Shown here: piece by piece, positions 1,792 through 51,571 of the stretch
Layout: each line of letters opens with the position of its first letter
Position numbering within the stretch: the first letter of the stretch is position 1
Virus record (IMG/VR): IMGVR_UViG_3300027749_002876
Location: 460,566 to 524,565 of that record
Direction: 5' to 3' (one strand)
DNA from: a virus
DNA length: 64,000 nt
Notes under the pieces: generated by a model
The model's database searches: none
Seen by the model: the letters and a program-made list of their open reading frames with translations, nothing else
What the model was told of the DNA's origin: nothing
Made by a program: the position numbers and the translations under genes

Positions 1792-1825
1792 TTATTTCTC
1801 CTGTTGTTTAACTGTTTAAGATTCT

Positions 1826-1854
1826 ATTATATACTCAAATCCATTTATTGTCAA
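1826..1854 (-). promoter_or_regulatory. Sigma70-type promoter, conserved repeat family
   Basis: On the minus strand, -35 TTGACA (1849-1854) is 17 bases from -10 TATAAT (1826-1831). The bases around it (ATAAATGG after -35, AGAATCTTA after -10) are shared with the promoters at 2162, 2637, 2962, 3318 and 22402. Confidence 0.9.
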
Positions 1855-1857
1855 ATT

Positions 1858-2130
1858 TTACACCAAGTCAACTTGGACTTGTTTACCACGGATTGTATGA
1901 CCTAGGCCTGTAGGAACTTCCTCATTTTTACGTTTTGCTTCATAACGCAAATAAGACAATTTAATTAGTGCATCCCAGCAAGTAGCACGGGCGTTTACCG
2001 TAGCAAACATTTCCGTCATTTGCTGGACCGTCATATACATACCGATATCGTTTTCGGATCCGTCACCCTTGAAAATTACACGGAATTTTTGTGAGTTATT
2101 AAATCCGTCAATGATAGTTTTTGTACGCAT
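1858..2130 (-). CDS. Hypothetical protein, 90 aa
   Basis: Unrecognised, basic at the C-terminus. The leader has AAAGGACTAGAAAATG and the promoter at 2162-2190. One of several single-gene units in this strip. Confidence 0.6.
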   Translation of the reverse strand: MRTKTIIDGFNNSQKFRVIFKGDGSENDIGMYMTVQQMTEMFATVNARATCWDALIKLSYLRYEAKRKNEEVPTGLGHTIRGKQVQVDLV

Positions 2131-2146
2131 TTTCTAGTCCTTTTCT

Positions 2147-2368
2147 TTATTGTCTAGATTCTATTGTAACAGAAACACCATTTATTGTCAAGTTTTGGTC
2201 AAGTTTAAAGTCCTCAAAATCTATCTCATTTTCCACATCGGAGATAACATTGCTAAGGTTGATGGACATGTCAAAAGCCTCGTCCGCATCACCAAATATT
2301 TCCTCAATGAGATCCTGAGCCTCGTTGAGCAAACTCAACAATTCCTGGAGGTTTTCAAATTTAGTCAT
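2147..2368 (-). CDS. Hypothetical acidic protein, 73 aa
   Basis: Very acidic; residues 8-40 are Leu, Asp and Glu rich and probably helical. The last ~14 codons run straight through the promoter of the next gene: TTGACA, the spacer and the -10 are read as Leu-Thr-Ile-Asn-Gly and onward. The C-terminal tail is therefore encoded by promoter DNA. Function unknown. Confidence 0.55.
   Translation of the reverse strand: MTKFENLQELLSLLNEAQDLIEEIFGDADEAFDMSINLSNVISDVENEIDFEDFKLDQNLTINGVSVTIESRQ
2162..2190 (-). promoter_or_regulatory. Sigma70-type promoter inside 3' end of preceding CDS
   Basis: -35 TTGACA (2185-2190), 17-base spacer, -10 TACAAT (2162-2167). Same family as 1826-1854, but the spacer differs after ATAAATGG. 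Confidence 0.8.
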
Positions 2369-2381
2369 TTAGTATTACCTT

Positions 2382-2603
2382 TTAGATATAGAATTCAGTA
2401 TCAAAATTCAAAGCGGTATAGACACATTCACGGACTTCTGTATCCATTGCTTCACCGAACAATTCATAGTCGCTGTCGGCCAAGTCACGCAAATTTTGAT
2501 AGACAACGGGCCAAGTGCTTTTCTGCATTTTGTGGAATTCAATAATATCGGCAATTTGTTTGTTACCGTTTTCGCTAAACATTCCGTATGATACTGTAGT
2601 CAT
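2382..2603 (-). CDS. Hypothetical protein, 73 aa
   Basis: Unrecognised. Begins MTTVSYGMFSENGNKQIADI, acidic overall. Preceded by AAAAGGACTTAGAAATG and the promoter at 2637-2665. Confidence 0.6.
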   Translation of the reverse strand: MTTVSYGMFSENGNKQIADIIEFHKMQKSTWPVVYQNLRDLADSDYELFGEAMDTEVRECVYTALNFDTEFYI

Positions 2604-2636
2604 TTCTAAGTCCTTTTCTTTACTGTCTAAGATTCT

Positions 2637-2665
2637 ATTATATACCCAAACCCATTTATTGTCAA
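2637..2665 (-). promoter_or_regulatory. Sigma70-type promoter, conserved repeat family
   Basis: -35 TTGACA (2660-2665), 17-base spacer, -10 TATAAT (2637-2642). Spacer and downstream bases match the other family copies. Confidence 0.9.
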
Positions 2666-2669
2666 ATTT

Positions 2670-2930
2670 TTACATTGACCAATAAGTCTCTGTTGCAGGA
2701 TTACAACAGTGTGGGGTGTCGGCATCAATTTCTATTTCCTTACCGGACATGAGATTTTTAACTGTTTTCTTGGGGAAAACGAATCCAGGGTTAAGAACCT
2801 TGAAAGCTTCCAAAGTCTTAGCAGTTTGTGCTAACGGGTTAGTTTCAATGAATTTAATCATTGACAGAAAAGTCATACCCAAAAATTCTGCGTCTTTTTG
2901 AATAACTTTGATTGCTGTAACTTGTTTCAT
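2670..2930 (-). CDS. Hypothetical protein, 86 aa
   Basis: Unrecognised. A helical N-terminal half is followed by a tail with adjacent cysteines (PHCCNPATET) near residue 75. It has its own promoter at 2962-2990. Confidence 0.6.
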   Translation of the reverse strand: MKQVTAIKVIQKDAEFLGMTFLSMIKFIETNPLAQTAKTLEAFKVLNPGFVFPKKTVKNLMSGKEIEIDADTPHCCNPATETYWSM

Positions 2931-2961
2931 TTGTGTCCTTTAGTTGACTGTCTAAGATTCT

Positions 2962-2990
2962 ATTATATACCCAAAACCATTTATTGTCAA
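2962..2990 (-). promoter_or_regulatory. Sigma70-type promoter, conserved repeat family
   Basis: -35 TTGACA (2985-2990), 17-base spacer, -10 TATAAT (2962-2967). Confidence 0.9.
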
Positions 2991-2994
2991 CCTT

Positions 2995-3285
2995 TTATCG
3001 TTTGTCGCAATACTCAAAAAGTATCCATTTTGCACGATTGAGGGCTTGACGGGCATCTTCGGCTCGCATATAGTCAATTTCACCATATTCGGTGTTAATC
3101 ATCTCTTGGGCATCACTCATCAAACTAGCGGCCATCATTGCAGGACCCGAATGACGAAAAGTAATACTTTGTTCTACAGCCTCACGCATTTGGGCTTCTG
3201 TGCAACCATACATGCGGATCTCACGTTTTTCTTGCATATCACGGTTAACAGCATTGACGATAGAAGAACGAAAATCAACTGTCAT
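2995..3285 (-). CDS. Hypothetical protein, 96 aa
   Basis: Unrecognised, mostly helical by composition (many Ala, Glu, Arg, Met). Start at 3285 after AAAGGAGTTTTTATG. It is driven by the promoter at 3318-3346, just downstream of the clpP terminator. Confidence 0.6.
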   Translation of the reverse strand: MTVDFRSSIVNAVNRDMQEKREIRMYGCTEAQMREAVEQSITFRHSGPAMMAASLMSDAQEMINTEYGEIDYMRAEDARQALNRAKWILFEYCDKR

Positions 3286-3317
3286 AAAAACTCCTTTAAT
3301 TAACTTACTAAGACTCT

Positions 3318-3346
3318 ATTATATACCCAAAACTATTTATTGTCAA
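3318..3346 (-). promoter_or_regulatory. Sigma70-type promoter, conserved repeat family
   Basis: -35 TTGACA (3341-3346), 17-base spacer, -10 TATAAT (3318-3323). It lies between the clpP terminator and the 96-aa gene. Confidence 0.9.
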
Positions 3347-3359
3347 ATTTTGGTAACCG

Positions 3360-22109: not shown

Positions 22110-22367
22110 TTAAACGAATTCGTAAAACTTAACAGATGGGTCTAACTTTTGCAATTCTTTAGCCGCCATTGTCAATTCCTTGTAGCGTTTCTGAACCAGA
22201 CTACGGGGCAGTTCACCATCACAAGTCAAATTCTCGGGACTCAAATCACTATCGATTGAATCGGCAATCTTTTGACGGTCAGTAGCATTGTCTAATGTAA
22301 GTTCTTTGGCACCAAAGATTGTAGCGTAAGCGTTCTTGCGAACCAGATATGTTTTTAATGCTGACAT
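22110..22367 (-). CDS. Hypothetical protein, 85 aa
   Basis: Unrecognised helical protein starting after CAGGAGTTAAAAATG. It is first in a unit driven by the family promoter at 22402-22430. Confidence 0.6.
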   Translation of the reverse strand: MSALKTYLVRKNAYATIFGAKELTLDNATDRQKIADSIDSDLSPENLTCDGELPRSLVQKRYKELTMAAKELQKLDPSVKFYEFV

Positions 22368-22401
22368 TTTTAACTCCTGTTGTTTAACTGTTTAAGATTC
22401 T

Positions 22402-22430
22402 ATTATATACCCAAAACCATTTATTGTCAA
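22402..22430 (-). promoter_or_regulatory. Sigma70-type promoter, conserved repeat family
   Basis: -35 TTGACA (22425-22430), 17-base spacer, -10 TATAAT (22402-22407). It is essentially identical over 40 bases to the copies at 1826-3346, about 20 kb away. Confidence 0.9.
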
Positions 22431-22434
22431 CCTT

Positions 22435-22659
22435 TTAGCCACGAATTTCAAATGCAAATTCAGTGCCGGATCTAGTGACATAAATCTTACGGCCATAGAC
22501 CGTGATATAACCCCACTCACCGTCTTGGTAAATGTCGTGCGGGTCCTTTTCAATAGTGACATTACGGACTATTTCACAGAAACCATTGCGCCATGTAGGC
22601 AGTTTCTGCTTAAAATACTTATCGTTGTCACGTTGAACAATGAAGATTTTTGATTTCAT
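22435..22659 (-). CDS. Hypothetical protein, 74 aa, predicted leaderless
   Basis: Start set at the ATG at 22659 (MKSKIFIVQRDNDKY). The consensus promoter's -10 ends 6 bases before this ATG, so the transcript should begin at the start codon. A longer frame back to 22749 would start inside the upstream gene. Function unknown; slightly basic, beta-rich. Confidence 0.6.
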   Translation of the reverse strand: MKSKIFIVQRDNDKYFKQKLPTWRNGFCEIVRNVTIEKDPHDIYQDGEWGYITVYGRKIYVTRSGTEFAFEIRG

Positions 22660-22665
22660 AAATGT

Positions 22666-22694
22666 ATTATACACCCAAATCCATTTATTGTCAA
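22666..22694 (-). promoter_or_regulatory. Sigma70-type promoter abutting a start codon
   Basis: -35 TTGACA (22689-22694), 17-base spacer, -10 TATAAT (22666-22671). The predicted +1 is ~22659, the A of the ATG. Confidence 0.85.
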
Positions 22695-22957
22695 ATTTTG
22701 TATGAGCAATAACCACGGATTTTGCTTTGCTTATTGGTAAAACTCTCATTGAATTTTACTTCATAACCCTTGGATTTAAGAGCCGTCATCAGTGTTGACA
22801 GGTCACAGTCTTCCTCAAGGAAAGCATTAGTACCATTTTGGTAACTGTAAGGGGTGATTTTATCAGCGATACCAAGACTGACCAACTTAGCTTTGGGGAA
22901 GCGAGCCCAGGCGTGTCCGGGGTCACCAAATACTTTGATAGAGATTTTCTTTGTCAT
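22691..22957 (-). CDS. Hypothetical protein, 88 aa
   Basis: Unrecognised. Begins MTKKISIKVFGDPGHAWARF. Starts after AAAGGACTATGAAATG, with the promoter at 22991-23019. Its last codons overlap the -35 of the next promoter. Confidence 0.6.
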   Translation of the reverse strand: MTKKISIKVFGDPGHAWARFPKAKLVSLGIADKITPYSYQNGTNAFLEEDCDLSTLMTALKSKGYEVKFNESFTNKQSKIRGYCSYKI

Positions 22958-22990
22958 TTCATAGTCCTTTATTTAACTGTCTAAGACTCT

Positions 22991-23019
22991 ATTATAGCAC
23001 AGTGTCCATTTAATGTCAA
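22991..23019 (-). promoter_or_regulatory. Sigma70-type promoter
   Basis: -35 TTGACA (23014-23019), 17-base spacer, -10 TATAAT (22991-22996). Related to the repeat family but diverged in the spacer. Confidence 0.88.
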
Positions 23020-23032
23020 ATTTTAGGTAAAA

Positions 23033-23057
23033 AAAGCCCCAAAAACAGGGGCATTTT
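23033..23057 (-). terminator. Rho-independent terminator
   Basis: On the minus strand GCCCC, loop, GGGGC is followed by seven Ts, just after the stop of the 89-aa gene. It separates that unit from the promoter at 22991. Confidence 0.8.
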
Positions 23058-23072
23058 TATGAACTAAAAGTA

Positions 23073-23342
23073 TTACTTTTTAGTAGTACCTTGGTTTACA
23101 AAACCGTACATCTTTTCAGCAGTTTCAAGGATCTTGTCTAGACCAGGAAACTCTGGCATGTTTACTTTGTTAACAATTTGTCCGGTCTTCTCATCACGTT
23201 CGGCACTGACTTCCCAGCCCATGTATTTGGCATGATACTCTTGACCTACTAAGTCTTTAGCCATTGATAAAATATCGGTACGAATTTCGTAGCCATTTTT
23301 ATTGAATTTAACTTCTGGTAGTTTTGGTGTAAAGTCTGTCAT
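23073..23342 (-). CDS. Hypothetical protein, 89 aa
   Basis: Unrecognised. Monocistronic between the promoter at 23369 and the terminator at 23033. Starts after AAGGAAATAAAATG. Contains YHAKYMGWEVSAERDEKTG. Confidence 0.6.
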   Translation of the reverse strand: MTDFTPKLPEVKFNKNGYEIRTDILSMAKDLVGQEYHAKYMGWEVSAERDEKTGQIVNKVNMPEFPGLDKILETAEKMYGFVNQGTTKK

Positions 23343-23365
23343 TTTATTTCCTTAAAAAGTGTGTG

Positions 23366-23467
23366 TTAATTGTAGTTTGTTTTGACTGGAATGTCAACGG
23401 GTTTTGGTAATGTACCATGATTAACCCACTCCCAGTCTTCGTCAGTCATAGGTTGCCATTGATTCAT
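23366..23467 (-). CDS. Very small ORF, 33 aa, reading into a promoter
   Basis: MNQWQPMTDEDWEWVNHGTL, then a tail encoded by the next promoter. Starts at an ATGA overlap with the ORF before it. Plausible but too short to be sure. Confidence 0.4.
   Translation of the reverse strand: MNQWQPMTDEDWEWVNHGTLPKPVDIPVKTNYN
23369..23397 (-). promoter_or_regulatory. Sigma70-type promoter
   Basis: -35 TTGACA (23392-23397), 17-base spacer, -10 TACAAT (23369-23374), upstream of the 89-aa gene. Confidence 0.8.
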
Positions 23468-23562
23468 ATCCAACCTTTAAATTCATTGTCAATGATTGGA
23501 TGTACTTCCCAACCTTCATTAGCCCATTTGAATAGCATGATTAGGTCGTTGATACATCTCAT
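23464..23562 (-). CDS. Very small ORF, 32 aa
   Basis: MRCINDLIMLFKWANEGWEV and onward. It is joined by ATGA overlaps at both ends to its neighbours, the usual pattern for real genes here. Function unknown. Confidence 0.4.
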   Translation of the reverse strand: MRCINDLIMLFKWANEGWEVHPIIDNEFKGWI

Positions 23563-23642
23563 TTTACTTTGCCCGCTTTGTATACTTTAAAGTCTCGGAC
23601 TGTTTGTACTATTGATAATAGTAGTTGTTTGATTTTGTTCAT
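23559..23642 (-). CDS. Very small ORF, 27 aa
   Basis: MNKIKQLLLSIVQTVRDFKV plus a short basic tail; amphipathic helix-like. ATGA overlaps on both sides. Confidence 0.4.
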   Translation of the reverse strand: MNKIKQLLLSIVQTVRDFKVYKAGKVK

Positions 23643-23833
23643 AGATACCTCTGTTGTGATTTTCTTTCAAATTCATTAGTCAACCGTTCAATATCACCAA
23701 TATCCTTGGGATTTTTACTATTGATATATTGCTCCAATTGACTACCATATGATTGGTTAGATAGCAATCCCAATAAAGGAATTGCTATGCCAATCACAGT
23801 CATTGTAATGATTGTGAGTAATACTGATATCAT
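23639..23833 (-). CDS. Small membrane protein, 64 aa
   Basis: Start set at 23833 (MISVLLTIITMTVIGIAIPL), just after the stop of the phasin-like gene. One N-terminal membrane span, followed by a polar tail. An earlier in-frame ATG would overlap the upstream gene deeply. Confidence 0.55.
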   Translation of the reverse strand: MISVLLTIITMTVIGIAIPLLGLLSNQSYGSQLEQYINSKNPKDIGDIERLTNEFERKSQQRYL

Positions 23834-23834
23834 A

Positions 23835-24104
23835 TTACTTAGATTTTTTTGTATTGAAAGCAGGAACCATTGCTTTGAATTGGTCACTCATTTCTGTGTA
23901 GAAATCTTTGCTTGTGAAAATCATACCCAAAGCCATCATAGATTGCATTCCTGCATCTGCGGCTTGTTTTGTATATTTTGATTGTGCATCAACAAATGTA
24001 ATCATTGCTGATTTGATGCCGTCGTGTTGAACTGTTTGTTCTACGAATTTCTTTTTAAAGTCTGAAACGCCGTCAATAAAGGCGTAAGTTGCTGTGTTAA
24101 ACAT
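23835..24104 (-). CDS. Phasin-like protein
   Basis: 89 aa, all helical and amphipathic. FVDAQSKYTKQAADAGMQSM and the following MALGMIFTSKDFYTE resemble phasin-family proteins that coat polyhydroxyalkanoate granules. Starts after TAGGAGATATAAAATG and is driven by a late octamer 60 bases upstream. If correct, it suggests a host that stores polyesters. The match is by pattern only and the short length leaves doubt. Confidence 0.5.
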   Translation of the reverse strand: MFNTATYAFIDGVSDFKKKFVEQTVQHDGIKSAMITFVDAQSKYTKQAADAGMQSMMALGMIFTSKDFYTEMSDQFKAMVPAFNTKKSK

Positions 24105-24166
24105 TTTATATCTCCTATGTGTGTGTTTAAAATTGAGTTTTTATGAAGAACTCGTAACTTCATATA

Positions 24167-24174
24167 TATTTATG
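24167..24174 (-). promoter_or_regulatory. Late promoter octamer CATAAATA
   Basis: The minus strand reads GGCATAAATATATATG; a ~60-base leader with AGGAG leads to the phasin-like gene. Confidence 0.55.
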
Positions 24175-24175
24175 C

Positions 24176-24373
24176 CTAGTCATATATTTCTCTATATTTC
24201 GACATAGCCATTTCTCTAGCCAGAAACAATCTTAATTGTACATAATCACTTAATTCCTCATCGTCATGTAAAGACGTTTCAATCTTTAATATGATACGAC
24301 GGGAATTAACTAATATGTCCTCATCATCAATTAGAACCTGATTTGGATCAAGTCCCCAAGTCCTAATTGCTAT
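24176..24373 (-). CDS. Conserved-looking ORF without a normal start codon
   Basis: After the stop of the Ala-rich gene, the +1 frame encodes RLIAIRTWGLDPNQVLIDDE and continues to ...LFLAREMAMSKYREIYD. This looks like genuine protein. The frame has no ATG, GTG or TTG between the upstream stop and this block. Either an ATA/ATT start is used, ribosomes shift frame from the preceding gene (the two overlap at CCTAAGAAGTAATCC), or it is a remnant. The left boundary of translation is therefore uncertain. Confidence 0.4.
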   Translation of the reverse strand: MAIRTWGLDPNQVLIDDEDILVNSRRIILKIETSLHDDEELSDYVQLRLFLAREMAMSKYREIYD

Positions 24374-24386
24374 GAGTCTATATGGA

Positions 24387-24656
24387 TTACTTCTTAGGAG
24401 CTTCGGCTTTTTTATCTTCGGCTTTTGCTGGGGCTGGACTAGCAGGCTTTGCGTCACTTTTAGTGTCTGCCTTGGGAGCATCCTTTTTCTTAGCTAATTT
24501 CATTTCAGCTTTTGGAGCTTCTGTTTTAGCAGGTGCAGCCGGTGCTACTGCTGCCGGAGTAGTAGTTGCTGGGGCTGTAGTTGCTTTTGCTGGCTCAGCG
24601 GCAAAAGCTGTTGCTACTGATAATGTTGTGATTAGGGCGATTGCTAATGTTTTCAT
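24387..24656 (-). CDS. Secreted Ala/Lys/Pro-rich low-complexity protein
   Basis: 89 aa with a clear signal peptide (MKTLAIALITTLSVATAFA, cleavage before AEP). The mature part is Ala, Pro, Thr and Lys repeats ending KKAEAPKK. The composition is like the tail of the membrane protein at 7425. Starts after AAAGGAAACTTAAAATG. Predicted periplasmic; role unknown. Confidence 0.65.
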   Translation of the reverse strand: MKTLAIALITTLSVATAFAAEPAKATTAPATTTPAAVAPAAPAKTEAPKAEMKLAKKKDAPKADTKSDAKPASPAPAKAEDKKAEAPKK

Positions 24657-24733
24657 TTTAAGTTTCCTTTAAGTTAATGAAGTAGATTTATGTGTCTACA
24701 TATATATAACGCAGTAGCTATTGATTCCGTTGA

Positions 24734-24741
24734 CATAAATA
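24734..24741 (+). promoter_or_regulatory. Late promoter octamer CATAAATA
   Basis: GACATAAATACATATTATG: 6 bases between octamer and ATG, no Shine-Dalgarno sequence. Confidence 0.65.
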
Positions 24742-24747
24742 CATATT

Positions 24748-25239
24748 ATGTTATATATATCTTATCAAGGAATCTACGATGGCCAAGACTATGAAAGTGC
24801 CAATACTCCCAAACAAATAAACAAAGCATTGGGTAAAGGCTATAGTTGTTTAATAGACGTTTGGAGAGTAGACAACAAATTGTATGTAGGAAATGGTCAA
24901 CCGTTAATTGAAGTAACCGAGAAATATATACAGGGTAATAGATTTTGGATTAATGCTGTAAACACTGATATGCAAGATTGGATAGCTACACAATCAAGTA
25001 CATTGTATCCAAACTACTTTAATTTTGCGGCAAGTACCCCGCCCCCACCATATGCTACTGCTAGTAATGGGAAACTGATTACTCCCGGAACTGTACCTAT
25101 CAATAGTAATAGTGTTATGTTTTTACCAGAGATAAACGACCGTAGCTTATATACTATGGTTAAGGTAAAAAGCTACGGAATATGTAGCGGATTTTTAACC
25201 CTTATTAAACGTATGCGTAATGAAGGTGTTTGGTATTAA
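24748..25239 (+). CDS. Degenerate phosphodiesterase-like (GDPD-type) protein
   Basis: 163 aa. NTPKQINKALGKGYSCLIDV near 21-40, followed by LYVGNGQPLIE, parallels a GDPD-like family in which this region reads N-P-E-Y-I ... IDVW ... LGHD-P. Here the GHD His/Asp become Asn/Gly (GNG), and a later HAKN-type block is NAVN. The fold may be kept without catalysis. Single plus-strand gene, predicted leaderless from a late octamer. The family assignment is by eye and uncertain. Confidence 0.45.
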   Translation: MLYISYQGIYDGQDYESANTPKQINKALGKGYSCLIDVWRVDNKLYVGNGQPLIEVTEKYIQGNRFWINAVNTDMQDWIATQSSTLYPNYFNFAASTPPPPYATASNGKLITPGTVPINSNSVMFLPEINDRSLYTMVKVKSYGICSGFLTLIKRMRNEGVWY

Positions 25240-25400
25240 CCACCACGCCCAGTACGTCTAACTACGCTAGCACCACCAAATCCTTTGCTAGGTTTGGGTG
25301 ATTTTTGTTCTGTTTTCTTTCCATTAATCATTGGTGCATTTTTCTTTTTAGCTTCATTGGCTAAATTAATGAATGGATTTGGGTTTTTCTTTTCTGTCAT
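25236..25400 (-). CDS. Small basic protein, 54 aa
   Basis: MTEKKNPNPFINLANEAKKK, ending SVVRRTGRGG. Starts with an ATGA overlap to the 134-aa gene and ends tail-to-tail with the plus-strand gene (shared TTAA). Function unknown. Confidence 0.6.
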   Translation of the reverse strand: MTEKKNPNPFINLANEAKKKNAPMINGKKTEQKSPKPSKGFGGASVVRRTGRGG

Positions 25401-25801
25401 TTTCTTACCTTTATTGAATCTAAGTAACTTACTATATCACCATATAGTTCAATCATCATAGCAATTTTGCTATCATATAATCTTATGTATGGTTTCTTTT
25501 TCTTACCTTCAATCTTATTTACACCCAAGTAGAAGGGGCATTTGATTTTTTTATTAATCTCCATAACATAAGCATGTTCACTAGTTCCCTCTCTAAGTTT
25601 AAAATCAGATTGATAATATTCAATCTCTGCCATTCTAAAAATGAAATCTCCATATTCTGTTAGTCGTAATCCATCTTGTCTACCACTGATCCATATACGC
25701 ATCATTAAATTATCCGCAGTGGAATCAATGCTTTTATTAGCAGGTAGTTCGGCCAATACGGCTTCGGTTATAATTTGTTTGATTGACTTACGATTAGTCA
25801 T
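25397..25801 (-). CDS. Hypothetical protein, 134 aa
   Basis: Not recognised. LMMRIWISGRQDGLRLTEYG (32-51) and the basic stretch NKIEGKKKKPYIRLYDSK look conserved and compact. The N-terminus (IKQIITEAVLAE) contains an I-T-E-A sequence, but it lacks the MRATEF pattern. Overlaps its neighbour by 8 bases. Confidence 0.6.
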   Translation of the reverse strand: MTNRKSIKQIITEAVLAELPANKSIDSTADNLMMRIWISGRQDGLRLTEYGDFIFRMAEIEYYQSDFKLREGTSEHAYVMEINKKIKCPFYLGVNKIEGKKKKPYIRLYDSKIAMMIELYGDIVSYLDSIKVRK

Positions 25802-26087
25802 CTGGATAAACTTTTTGGCCGTTGTTCATAAAAACGACACTAAATTTATCAGTTTTGAATTGTGCGTTTAATTTACGACACAGGTTCCTAGCGTGACCAG
25901 GATTGCTGAAGCTAGTTTTTTTATATTTTGGAGTTGCATCCGGATCTTGATAATGTTGGCTTTTTAAATTGATAGGTTGGTTATCATAGAAGACAGCCCA
26001 AATTCCTGCAGCCTCAACAATTTGATCGCACTTGTATGTATTCTTATCTACGATTTCTAACAAAATCTTTGGTTGTGTCCTAGACAT
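25794..26087 (-). CDS. Hypothetical protein, 97 aa
   Basis: Unrecognised. Contains IWAVFYDNQPINLKS and FSNPGHARNLCRKLNAQFKT, suggesting a small alpha/beta fold. Overlaps the upstream gene stop by one base. Confidence 0.6.
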   Translation of the reverse strand: MSRTQPKILLEIVDKNTYKCDQIVEAAGIWAVFYDNQPINLKSQHYQDPDATPKYKKTSFSNPGHARNLCRKLNAQFKTDKFSVVFMNNGQKVYPDD

Positions 26088-26281
26088 TAAAATCTACCGC
26101 CGTTAATTTCTAGTTGAATAACATTATCATCGGTTGCTTTTTTGGTATTAAGTAACTCATAATTTTCTGCTATTAACTTAGCTATCTCATCACGCAATGT
26201 TCTAGCCTCATCTATGGGCAAAACTAAATTAGTCCCCTTAGTGGCTGAAACCTTGTCAATGAAACGCTTTATAATAATCAT
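26087..26281 (-). CDS. Hypothetical protein, 64 aa
   Basis: Unrecognised. A helical middle (LPIDEARTLRDEIAKLIAEN) is followed by a short strand. ATGA overlap upstream. Confidence 0.6.
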   Translation of the reverse strand: MIIIKRFIDKVSATKGTNLVLPIDEARTLRDEIAKLIAENYELLNTKKATDDNVIQLEINGGRF

Positions 26282-26745
26282 ACATTATTTATCAAGGCCT
26301 CAGCTTCTTCTTCAGTTTTAAACGGACCTTGATACTGATAACGCTGGATAAAGATGTATTTAGGGCAAAAAATTGATTTTTCTTCACTACCTTGCTTAAA
26401 TGTGTACCATCCTGCGGCATGATAGCACTTACTTTTGGGAGTTTTAGTAAACAAATGTAATTTGCGTTTGATATCTAATACTGAATTATATACCTTATTT
26501 GTTGTGGGATATTCATTGAATGGTACTTCTTTCTTATCACTACTAAATTTACTGAAGGTTAGAAATTCAATATTTGCTATTTTTTTAATAGTTTTTGTAT
26601 TTTTGTAATGTGTTTTATTTCCGTTAAGTTTTACCTCAAATCCAGATCCATCAGCAAGTACATTGCCGACTTTCTCTGTACCATCAGTAACAATCCAGAA
26701 TTGATTTTTAACTACAGGTTTTGCAATTAATGTTTTATTAGTCAT
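26278..26745 (-). CDS. Hypothetical protein, 155 aa
   Basis: Unrecognised basic protein. The end (KCYHAAGWYTFKQG, then FCPKYIFIQRYQYQGPFKTE) looks conserved and carries two cysteines. ATGA overlaps both sides. Confidence 0.6.
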   Translation of the reverse strand: MTNKTLIAKPVVKNQFWIVTDGTEKVGNVLADGSGFEVKLNGNKTHYKNTKTIKKIANIEFLTFSKFSSDKKEVPFNEYPTTNKVYNSVLDIKRKLHLFTKTPKSKCYHAAGWYTFKQGSEEKSIFCPKYIFIQRYQYQGPFKTEEEAEALINNV

Positions 26746-27020
26746 TTTTTTCTTTTCTTTGTTTCAGGTTCATCGTCAAAATTTGTTAATCGTGTGACAC
26801 CCTTATGCGTACATATTAACACATTTGTATATCTATTGTCAACCTTTAAAGGTAAATCTAAATGAATATGTAATTCAGGACCTCGAACTTCACTAATTAC
26901 AGTATCATTGCCCACACTACCTATCCAACGTATTTTACCATACATCCCGGTCACTCTAGCCATAAATTCATATTTAGGCTTATATCTATGTTGTTCGAAA
27001 TATTCAGCTAGACTTGCCAT
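26742..27020 (-). CDS. Hypothetical protein, 92 aa
   Basis: Unrecognised. MASLAEYFEQHRYKPKYEF, then beta-rich sequence and a basic ETKKRKK end. It overlaps its upstream neighbour by 17 bases. Confidence 0.6.
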   Translation of the reverse strand: MASLAEYFEQHRYKPKYEFMARVTGMYGKIRWIGSVGNDTVISEVRGPELHIHLDLPLKVDNRYTNVLICTHKGVTRLTNFDDEPETKKRKK

Positions 27021-27204
27021 TTTTTAATTCCATAACAGGTGCAATATTATTATCAAAAATCTGAGCCATTGTCTTATACAATCCTTTACGCTCGTCCGGC
27101 GTCATTCCTGCTACCCAGGGAGGACCATTTGGATCTTTATCTAATCCATAATCATGTCGATATGTATAACACATATCAGTAATGACTTCTTCCCGTGATT
27201 TCAT
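27004..27204 (-). CDS. Hypothetical protein, 66 aa
   Basis: Unrecognised. Contains YGLDKDPNGPPWVAGMTPDE. One-base stop/start overlap upstream. Confidence 0.55.
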   Translation of the reverse strand: MKSREEVITDMCYTYRHDYGLDKDPNGPPWVAGMTPDERKGLYKTMAQIFDNNIAPVMELKNGKSS

Positions 27205-27401
27205 TATAGTTGAAACTTTTTCAAGTACTCTTTAGCCAAATTATAATCTTCTACAACTGGCTCATCTAACATTTTTCTGTATTCAATAATGATTTCCATA
27301 GCATAGGCCTGATCCTCATCTTCTAATGAGTACCACCACTCTTGTAATTCTTCCGGTGTTTTGTTTAAAATATATTGTAAGTTGTTGTAATCTCTACTCA
27401 T
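27204..27401 (-). CDS. Hypothetical acidic protein, 65 aa
   Basis: Unrecognised helical, acidic protein (TPEELQEWWYSLEDEDQAYA). Preceded by TAGGAGAATAATATG. Confidence 0.55.
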   Translation of the reverse strand: MSRDYNNLQYILNKTPEELQEWWYSLEDEDQAYAMEIIIEYRKMLDEPVVEDYNLAKEYLKKFQL

Positions 27402-27410
27402 ATTATTCTC

Positions 27411-27605
27411 CTAGTTTTCCCAAGTTTCAAATCCAAAATGTTTTTTAATCAAATCATTAGCCTTGTACGGTTCTGCATTATCAGCAATATCAGCACATTC
27501 CTTGACAATTAACTCGGCTAACTTTCCTACATTGTCAACATTCATCCATTTGCCACTAACGTCGGTTCCCACTTGTGTAATCAATTCTTTAATTCGTTCA
27601 CTCAT
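27411..27605 (-). CDS. KFAELIV-family small protein, 64 aa
   Basis: VGKLAELIVKECADIADNAE plus LIKKHFGFETW, closely matching the C-terminal part of the 19150 protein. ATGA overlap with the nuclease gene. Confidence 0.65.
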   Translation of the reverse strand: MSERIKELITQVGTDVSGKWMNVDNVGKLAELIVKECADIADNAEPYKANDLIKKHFGFETWEN

Positions 27606-28603
27606 ACTAAACTTCCCTTATATGGACTGTTCAACCATTTCGAATATATTTCCGCTTGTGCGCTAATTTTTTGTAAATCATACTTGCCACAGAATTTTAG
27701 AAAGTGTAGACCCACTTGAGGAATAGTCTCAACTCGGACACTTTCACGAATACGTTGATCCACAGCATCTTTAATTTCTTGGGGCTGTGCAGTCAAGTCA
27801 ATGAGGGTTTTGTTGCGCTCAAATGCATCTTTAACTCGCACCTCAACATTATTGTGATCGACAAAACGTTGCAACATAAAATTATTATAATTAAAGCCCA
27901 TTTTATTTCGATCCTCAAATGCTTCACGAATACCAACTTTATTCTTAGTGCCTTTTTCTCTGGCCCCGGGGTACGCCGCAAATACGTTGTCGCTTGAATC
28001 ACCTCTGACCAATTTTTTAAATAATCCGTACTCGGGATCTTCTAAGAGTTTTGGTTCTTTAGTTTTCTTATCAATGACTGGTTTACCATTTTCTTTGAGA
28101 TATCCATTAGTAGTTACAAGTTCATTGCCTACGCCATTATATCTAGAAACTTTGTCTGTAATGAGTTGGTCGTAATCCGTGTCTGTGGAAATTATGTAGT
28201 GCCGATCTGATGGATGCAATGCGATGAAGCGGGCAATCATGTCATCTGCCTCAGCACGTTCGTGTCGCAGGACACTTACGTTGGTCTTGGATTGAATGTA
28301 TTCTGTAAATTTTGAATACGTGTCCCAAAACATTTTTGATTCTTCAGCCTCTTCCTCAGTAATAGACATAGCATCTACTACACGATTTTTTTTATATGGA
28401 GCATATAAATCTTTGCGAAAGCTACGGCCTTCGAGACAGAAAACGCAGTGGTCAATTCCAAAACGTTTTACTGCTTGATTCACACTTGCTAGTGTAAGGT
28501 GCAAGGCCATGCCTATCTTCTCTTCCAAGGTACTAGAACGTGATGCCACGTGTCTAGCACGGAAGAAAGTATTTGCAGTATCGATGAGAGCGTATTTTGT
28601 CAT
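27602..28603 (-). CDS. 5'-3' exonuclease / RNase H-like (FEN family)
   Basis: 333 aa, similar to T4 RNase H (305 aa). Acidic metal-site motifs: DTANTFFRARH (8-18), AEADDMIARF (~119-128), STDTDYDQL (~140-148) and RGDSSDNV (~199-206). These fit the FEN/PIN-like nucleases that remove RNA primers during lagging-strand synthesis. The ATG at 28603 lies 6 bases after the -10 of a consensus promoter, so the mRNA should be leaderless; no Shine-Dalgarno sequence exists. Confidence 0.9.
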   Translation of the reverse strand: MTKYALIDTANTFFRARHVASRSSTLEEKIGMALHLTLASVNQAVKRFGIDHCVFCLEGRSFRKDLYAPYKKNRVVDAMSITEEEAEESKMFWDTYSKFTEYIQSKTNVSVLRHERAEADDMIARFIALHPSDRHYIISTDTDYDQLITDKVSRYNGVGNELVTTNGYLKENGKPVIDKKTKEPKLLEDPEYGLFKKLVRGDSSDNVFAAYPGAREKGTKNKVGIREAFEDRNKMGFNYNNFMLQRFVDHNNVEVRVKDAFERNKTLIDLTAQPQEIKDAVDQRIRESVRVETIPQVGLHFLKFCGKYDLQKISAQAEIYSKWLNSPYKGSLV

Positions 28604-28609
28604 GTGTCT

Positions 28610-28638
28610 ATTATATACTACTATTTAGATGTTGTCAA
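28610..28638 (-). promoter_or_regulatory. Sigma70-type promoter abutting the nuclease start codon
   Basis: -35 TTGACA (28633-28638), 17-base spacer, -10 TATAAT (28610-28615). Predicted +1 at ~28603. Confidence 0.88.
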
Positions 28639-50914: not shown

Positions 50915-50943
50915 AGTATACTTGAGTTGCGTAGAGAAGTCAA
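50915..50943 (-). promoter_or_regulatory. Sigma70-type promoter of the DsbA-polymerase unit
   Basis: -35 TTGACT (50938-50943), 17-base spacer, -10 TATACT (50915-50920). AAGGAGAAACTATG follows. Confidence 0.82.
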
Positions 50944-51536
50944 GTATTTTGTTTACCTTGTACAATCTTCTTGACCAAAGTATGTAGTCCTGGATTGACA
51001 TGTAATGCATGTGGCATCAATTCATTACGAACATAGTTACGCATATAGCGTGAGTTTTTGTTTGATTCATCTTCAAGCCAGGGTACGTTATGACTCTCAC
51101 ACCAATAGATAAACTCCTGTTTGCGTGTAGTTAAGAATGGTCTGATTACATTGTTGCGTGTTAATGGAATAACTTTGGGTGTACCATGTAAGCTTGACCA
51201 AATATATGTTTCAACACAATCATCTAAGTGATGACAAGTGATGACTGGCCCAAGACCACTTAAAAAATCATAACGTTCTCTACGCCAGTATTCTTCTTGA
51301 CTTTCTTTACTACCCTTTTGACTTCGTGGTGATCCATATAGCATTGGGATATTATTATCACTGCAATATCTGGAAACAAATTGTGAGGCTTTTTCACCGT
51401 TTTGTGTTCTGTGATTAAAATGGGCAATCGTTACTTCGTGCTTGCGACTTAAAAAGTCAACTACTGCCATGCTATCTACACCACCGCTACAAGCGACTGT
51501 GATACTTTTGGGTAATGGAACTGTTAGCTTAATCAT
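50940..51536 (-). CDS. tilS: tRNA(Ile)-lysidine synthase TilS, N-terminal domain only
   Basis: 198 aa. PP-loop ACSGGVDSM (15-23), HFNH (39-42), CHHLDDCVET (~101-110), VIRPFL (~133) and DESNKN...RNYVRNELMP (~158-174) are the N-type ATPase motifs. Bacterial TilS is ~430 aa, so the C-terminal tRNA domains are absent. It converts AUG-reading tRNA to Ile AUA-reading; the AT-rich phage may use AUA heavily. The ATG follows the -10 by 6 bases (leaderless). Confidence 0.88.
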   Translation of the reverse strand: MIKLTVPLPKSITVACSGGVDSMAVVDFLSRKHEVTIAHFNHRTQNGEKASQFVSRYCSDNNIPMLYGSPRSQKGSKESQEEYWRRERYDFLSGLGPVITCHHLDDCVETYIWSSLHGTPKVIPLTRNNVIRPFLTTRKQEFIYWCESHNVPWLEDESNKNSRYMRNYVRNELMPHALHVNPGLHTLVKKIVQGKQNT

Positions 51537-51542
51537 CTATAC

Positions 51543-51571
51543 ATTATAGCATATAATGATTTGTTTAGCAA
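51543..51571 (-). promoter_or_regulatory. Promoter abutting the tilS start codon
   Basis: -35 TTGCTA (51566-51571), 17-base spacer, -10 TATAAT (51543-51548). Predicted +1 at ~51536, the A of the ATG. Confidence 0.7.

Follow-up and report, generated by a model that had tools for sequence, protein, structure and literature searches.

Accounts of leaderless translation in phages usually draw on a single gene, lambda cI, or on hosts in which it is common. Lambda has been cited as the first bacterial instance (PMC3160421), and in Cluster O mycobacteriophages the promoters PL1, PR2, and PL2 are predicted to give leaderless mRNAs (PMC4351075). In bacterial "TA-led" leaderless genes, a TANNNT motif precedes the start by about 12 bp (PMC3160421). 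In other systems, 70S particles are established to bind leaderless mRNAs at the 5' AUG (review PMC9031893). Here we describe sigma70-type promoters placed such that the mRNA would begin at the ATG of three genes in a 64,000-nucleotide stretch of viral DNA (the window). The window is the last 64 kb (460566 to 524565) of a viral record of 524,565 bases and comes from a widespread group of giant freshwater phages, a jumbo phage lineage. We consider it very likely that these genes give true leaderless mRNAs, transcribed by a host sigma70-type RNA polymerase and started at the 5' AUG by 70S ribosomes.

Promoter position at three window genes

The initial annotation placed promoters with a 17-base spacer upstream of ATGs at 22659, 28603, and 51536, each with its -10 ending 6 bases before the start codon, and rereading the sequence confirmed this arrangement. 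All three genes lie on the minus strand. The first (22435 to 22659) encodes a 74-amino-acid (aa) protein without a Pfam match. Its promoter (22666 to 22694) has two perfect hexamers, a -35 at 22694 to 22689 and a -10 at 22671 to 22666, separated by 17 bp, and reads TTGACA ATAAATGGATTTGGGTG TATAAT ACATTT ATG. The second gene (27602 to 28603) encodes a 333-aa 5'-3' exonuclease/flap endonuclease-like replicative 5' nuclease, with a Pfam 5_3_exonuc_N domain at residues 4 to 161 (E=9e-17); its promoter (28610 to 28638), again with perfect hexamers and a 17-base spacer, reads TTGACA ACATCTAAATAGTAGTA TATAAT AGACAC ATG. The third (50940 to 51536) encodes a TilS-like PP-loop tRNA(Ile)-lysidine synthase domain of 198 aa, in which Pfam ATP_bind_3 is the sole domain found (E=2.5e-33) and the PP-loop motif SGGxDS is present as SGGVDS. 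Its promoter (51543 to 51571; TTGCTA AACAAATCATTATATGC TATAAT GTATAG ATG) has a weak -35 and, after a 17-base spacer, an extended -10 (TGC-TATAAT; TGCTATAAT). The two Pfam matches bear out the gene identities given to the 5' nuclease and tilS.

Transcription from sigma70 promoters normally starts at the seventh base after the -10. At all three genes this base is the A of the ATG, so that the expected +1 is the start codon itself and no Shine-Dalgarno (SD) sequence fits upstream. Within the window, 17 genes have a promoter with at most two mismatches within 40 nucleotides (nt) of the start ATG. Only the three named genes have the promoter at offset 6 (six bases between -10 and ATG), and none of them has an SD, as had been claimed. 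Twelve others have offsets of 17 to 34 with an SD in all 12, and the remaining two, at 27401 (offset 0) and 53025 (offset 15), have weak promoter matches.

To compare this spacing with chance, we surveyed 254 kb of the record, counting an ATG if it opens an open reading frame (ORF) of at least 40 aa. Among 93 promoters with at most one mismatch, offset 6 has eight such ATGs, whereas the other offsets from 0 to 25 average 0.36 (P about 4e-9, with cases treated as independent). Homologous copies are present among the eight; the independent number is about five families, and the excess is still clear. A broad second peak at offsets 27 to 35 represents the SD-led class, driven by the same promoter cassette. 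Offset-6 matches without a protein gene were set aside; at record position 425231, for example, the "ATG" lies at the edge of a tRNA-like sequence. Fifteen other viral contigs have 41 perfect promoters with an ATG within 16 bases downstream, of which 21 are at exactly offset 6 and none at 3, 4, 5, 7, 10, or 14; these contigs are mutually related and the counts are not independent events. The 21 cases have 18 different hexamers between -10 and ATG, and the base before the ATG is T or C in 16 of them, which fits a Y(-1)A(+1) initiator. Chance is thus rejected as a full explanation for the offset-6 excess in the record and the other contigs, in agreement with the initial annotation.

Conservation of the register and switching of initiation type

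The initial annotation proposed comparing upstream spacing across relatives. The three window cases would be slender evidence by themselves, but the register is kept over hundreds of related loci in at least six unrelated gene families (the 5' nuclease, TilS, the 74-aa ORF, a GIY-YIG protein, DnaJ, and a metallophosphoesterase), mostly at 5 to 6 bases and always with ATG. For the 5' nuclease, we compared 80 relatives on viral contigs and the two copies in this record. Fifty-one loci (42 distinct upstream sequences) are at offset 6, all with ATG, and the distance from the ATG to the conserved Y of YALIDT varies from 2 to 5 codons, indicating that coding indels happen while the register stays. 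TilS has its -10 at offset 6 in 41 of 41 distinct upstream sequences, including one relative with TACAAT and a weak -35 (L130). The 74-aa ORF has 19 distinct upstream sequences at offset 6, one at 7, and six leadered at 31 to 32, most with an SD; those of its other relatives have no recognizable promoter.

The GIY-YIG, DnaJ, and metallophosphoesterase genes were first met as offset-6 matches and then used as predictions. Offset 6 is found in 43 of 43 GIY-YIG genes, whereas DnaJ (n=23) divides between offset 6 (12) and offset 5 (9). In the metallophosphoesterase, 34 of 59 are at offset 6 under a strict cut, and most others have, at this same offset, a TATAAT-like box preceded by a weak -35. All starts in these three families are ATG, and none of their offset-5 or -6 cases has an SD. 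In the diverged second copies within the same record, the 5' nuclease and 74-aa ORF are at offset 6 and tilS at 7. As a separate observation, the tilS -10 is flanked in relatives by complementary arms (CTATGC-TATAAT-GCATAG; window 51537 to 51554; loci L102 to L181), which form an imperfect dyad that covaries modestly at two of its six pairs and could be an operator.

A near-leaderless variant of this explanation, in which transcripts carry leaders of 1 to 3 nt or start at variable positions, is unlikely but deserves weight. Sigma70 starts vary by a few bases, and DnaJ and a few others have the promoter at offset 5 or 7; however, exactly 6 is strongly preferred, with A as the +1 base and a pyrimidine before it in most cases, which suggests that positioning is precise.

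The true start codons might instead lie elsewhere, either upstream or downstream with an SD. The frames of the 74-aa and GIY-YIG genes are indeed often open upstream, with GTG, TTG, or ATG in or just upstream of the -10, but this nearest alternative, usually in or beside the -10, would be usable only on a read-through transcript, and the 74-aa ORF has no further in-frame start downstream of its ATG. For the 5' nuclease, TilS, and DnaJ the alternatives are closed. No in-frame upstream start precedes a stop in 48 of 51 offset-6 loci of the 5' nuclease, and an in-frame stop lies at most 15 codons upstream in 36 of 39 upstream sequences of TilS and 23 of 23 of DnaJ. Conserved motifs (LIDTAN in the 5' nuclease, SGGVDS in TilS, and those of the J-domain) begin within a few residues of the predicted ATG, so that downstream starts would delete them. 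Alternative starts are therefore rejected for most families, and as an overall explanation they are scarcely credible. These genes carry a warning for annotation, in that SD-based gene finding and start-codon calls can misplace or miss leaderless starts.

Equal spacing could also have been inherited, without functional meaning, from a promoter-plus-ATG cassette copied within genomes. The 74-aa ORF and the GIY-YIG gene have TTGACAATAAATGG...TATAATNCATYT in common with many early promoters, as such copying would predict. In contrast, the promoters of TilS, the 5' nuclease, DnaJ, and the metallophosphoesterase are unrelated in -35, spacer, and hexamer but have the same offset, and across relatives the register is kept while all of these and the number of N-terminal codons differ. 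Copying alone is very improbable and was rejected as a full explanation. Further, the TTGACAATAAATGG cassette of the 74-aa ORF also occurs in SD-led early promoters and drives both classes alike; most promoter-proximal genes have this cassette followed by a leader of 26 to 34 nt with an SD. An example is the minus-strand promoter at 22402 to 22430, with leader AGAATCTTAAACAGTTAAACAACAGGAGTTAAAA and an ATG at 22367 (offset 34). Since one cassette serves both classes, whether a gene is leaderless or SD-led is decided within the 40 bp surrounding its start. Early promoter-leader cassettes that are nearly identical to one another (TTGACAATAAATGGNTTTGGGTATATAATAGAATCTTA...AAAGGA) form a large family, with dozens of repeats before small ORFs (window 1798 to 3355, 22370 to 22430, 22958 to 23025, and elsewhere in the record). 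In two phages (L240 and L252), perfect offset-6 promoters are followed by a conserved eight-codon ORF, MRYKFRRT or MRYKIRRT, which might represent either a leader peptide or a non-coding transcript.

Relatives of the 5' nuclease gene fall into three types: leaderless, SD-led (seven clear cases), and leadered without an SD (21 cases). The start is GTG in four of the seven clear SD-led cases, and GTG occurs only among leadered relatives. Leaders without an SD are about 22 to 35 nt long (for example, L030, L032, L039, L041, L067, and L068). On a maximum-likelihood tree of 70 5' nuclease proteins, the leaderless label requires 15 changes, at least 12 of which are forced by starred branches. Leaderless L031 and its very close relative L032 differ in that the +1 triplet of L032 is ATA rather than ATG and its start lies 27 nt further on. 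Similarly, leaderless L084 has very close proteins in L077 (leader without an SD) and L080 (SD-led). The ATG at +1 has thus been repeatedly gained or lost, and where present it is always at the same base. The occurrence of one gene as leaderless, SD-led, and SD-less leadered among nearly identical proteins is a natural experiment on the switching of initiation mode. Leadered relatives often have long, near-perfect palindromes on or overlapping the -10 (for example, AGTAGTCGTATAATTATTATACGACTACT), upstream of the 5' nuclease gene (L080, L096, L059, L089, and L069) and of dnaJ (L281 and L282), which are possibly operators or hairpins on read-through RNA.

Transcript context and route of initiation

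All but 7 of the 93 predicted genes in the window (86 of 93) are tightly packed on one strand, and the genes upstream of the ATGs at 22659, 28603, and 51536 stop only 31 to 52 bases before them. This packing would suit an alternative in which the local promoters are genuine but most of the protein is made from longer read-through mRNAs that begin at upstream operon promoters, via SD-independent initiation or coupling, with the leaderless message being minor. Such a reading leaves unexplained why the distance from -10 to ATG is fixed at exactly 6 while the sequences change. It is further countered at the metallophosphoesterase gene, which a covarying hairpin parts from upstream transcripts, and overall we regard it as quite improbable. 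The hairpin (L285 to L364; 342118 to 342148 in the record of this phage) lies between the upstream stop and the -10, within 50 bases before the start, and overlaps the -35. It covaries strongly, being paired in 91.7% of cells with a covariation of 0.614; shuffles give 0.256, and 0 of 500 reach the observed value. A short T run is often present, and the hairpin is possibly an intrinsic terminator. If so, upstream transcripts would stop there and the metallophosphoesterase gene would rely on its own leaderless message. The hairpin also fills the space between stop and -10, so that another leader would not fit there.

Taken together, these features favor the leaderless explanation, whose steps we infer as follows. 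Host RNA polymerase with a sigma70-type factor would recognize the -35/-10 pair and start at the purine seven bases past the last base of the -10, namely the A of the ATG. The resulting mRNA would begin 5'-AUG, without a leader or an SD, and an intact 70S ribosome with initiator formylmethionyl-tRNA (fMet-tRNA) would bind the terminal AUG as the most likely route. This mode would serve only some genes, most of them enzymatic or small (the six families), with others SD-led from the same cassette. A self-contained promoter and start of about 38 bp could plausibly be of benefit where operons are densely packed, and the design probably gives modest, SD-independent expression. The initial annotation spoke of deliberate use of leaderless translation; the conserved register supports such use, and "deliberate" is better put as "maintained by selection."

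Several points weigh against leaderless translation of these genes. Some relatives have offset 5 or 7, and the contigs compared are related, as stated above. The SD-less leadered type means that absence of an SD alone is no proof of a leaderless message. Read-through mRNAs of upstream genes may also carry the leaderless-type genes. The DnaJ message shows no unusual lack of structure at its 5' end, and an unstructured 5' end, tested as a general signature of leaderless messages, proved not to be general. Finally, the named jumbo-phage relatives GAP32, XbC2, RCIP0023, JP4, and PA5oct have leadered 5' nuclease or tilS genes, indicating that the leaderless trait is lineage-specific.

A more elaborate proposal, which we consider rather doubtful, is that the leaderless and SD-led classes form a control channel. 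Stage-dependent alteration of host initiation (for example, in factor levels, ribosome modification, or fMet-tRNA supply) would favor 5'-AUG messages such as those for the 5' nuclease, TilS, and DnaJ, and genes would switch class by exchange of their 5' cassette.

Source of the record and comparison with known systems

The 524-kb record nearly duplicates itself in inverted orientation, at about 70 to 90% nucleotide identity (window 357 to 63507 versus record 76456 to 13610), with its mirror center near 270 kb, beside collagen-like repeat genes at 269.7 to 272.6 kb. It is probably a chimeric assembly of two related jumbo phages of about 260 kb rather than a true 524-kb genome. A GTDB protein search for the host returned one contig, L445 (CAMBZO010000065.1), with a 5' nuclease 58% identical, from a metagenome-assembled genome labeled Akkermansia muciniphila. 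This contig is probably a mis-binned phage contig and is not informative.

No leaderless genes in jumbo phages were found in the literature searched; the AR9 paper gives 5' untranslated regions of 26 to 491 nt, and the word "leaderless" is absent from a jumbo-phage review. Cronobacter phage GAP32 and Xanthomonas phage XbC2 have a homologous 5' nuclease gene, also with an upstream TATAAT, but in those phages the TATAAT precedes an SD-bearing leader (AATGGAG) about 30 nt long, unlike the leaderless form described here.

The lambda cI mRNA from PRM resembles the present case in its sigma70 promoter, AUG-first transcript, and lack of an SD, but it involves one repressor gene of a temperate phage, whereas in this jumbo phage lineage many enzymatic genes are concerned. 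The Cluster O mycobacteriophages likewise have a SigA-like promoter whose predicted +1 coincides with the first base of the start codon; they differ in having an actinobacterial host with common leaderless genes, few such promoters, and no cross-relative test of the register. TA-led genes share the diagnostic -10 position that makes transcription start and start codon coincide. They belong to cellular genomes, while the phage genes also have a strong consensus -35 and flip between leaderless and SD-led forms in close relatives. The present phages, with their conserved offset, offer a good system for testing the translation of leaderless messages. The mechanism itself is already known from lambda cI, mycobacteriophages, and Actinobacteria; what is new is how many unrelated genes are involved, how deeply the arrangement is conserved, and that the initiation type has switched repeatedly within a jumbo-phage lineage.

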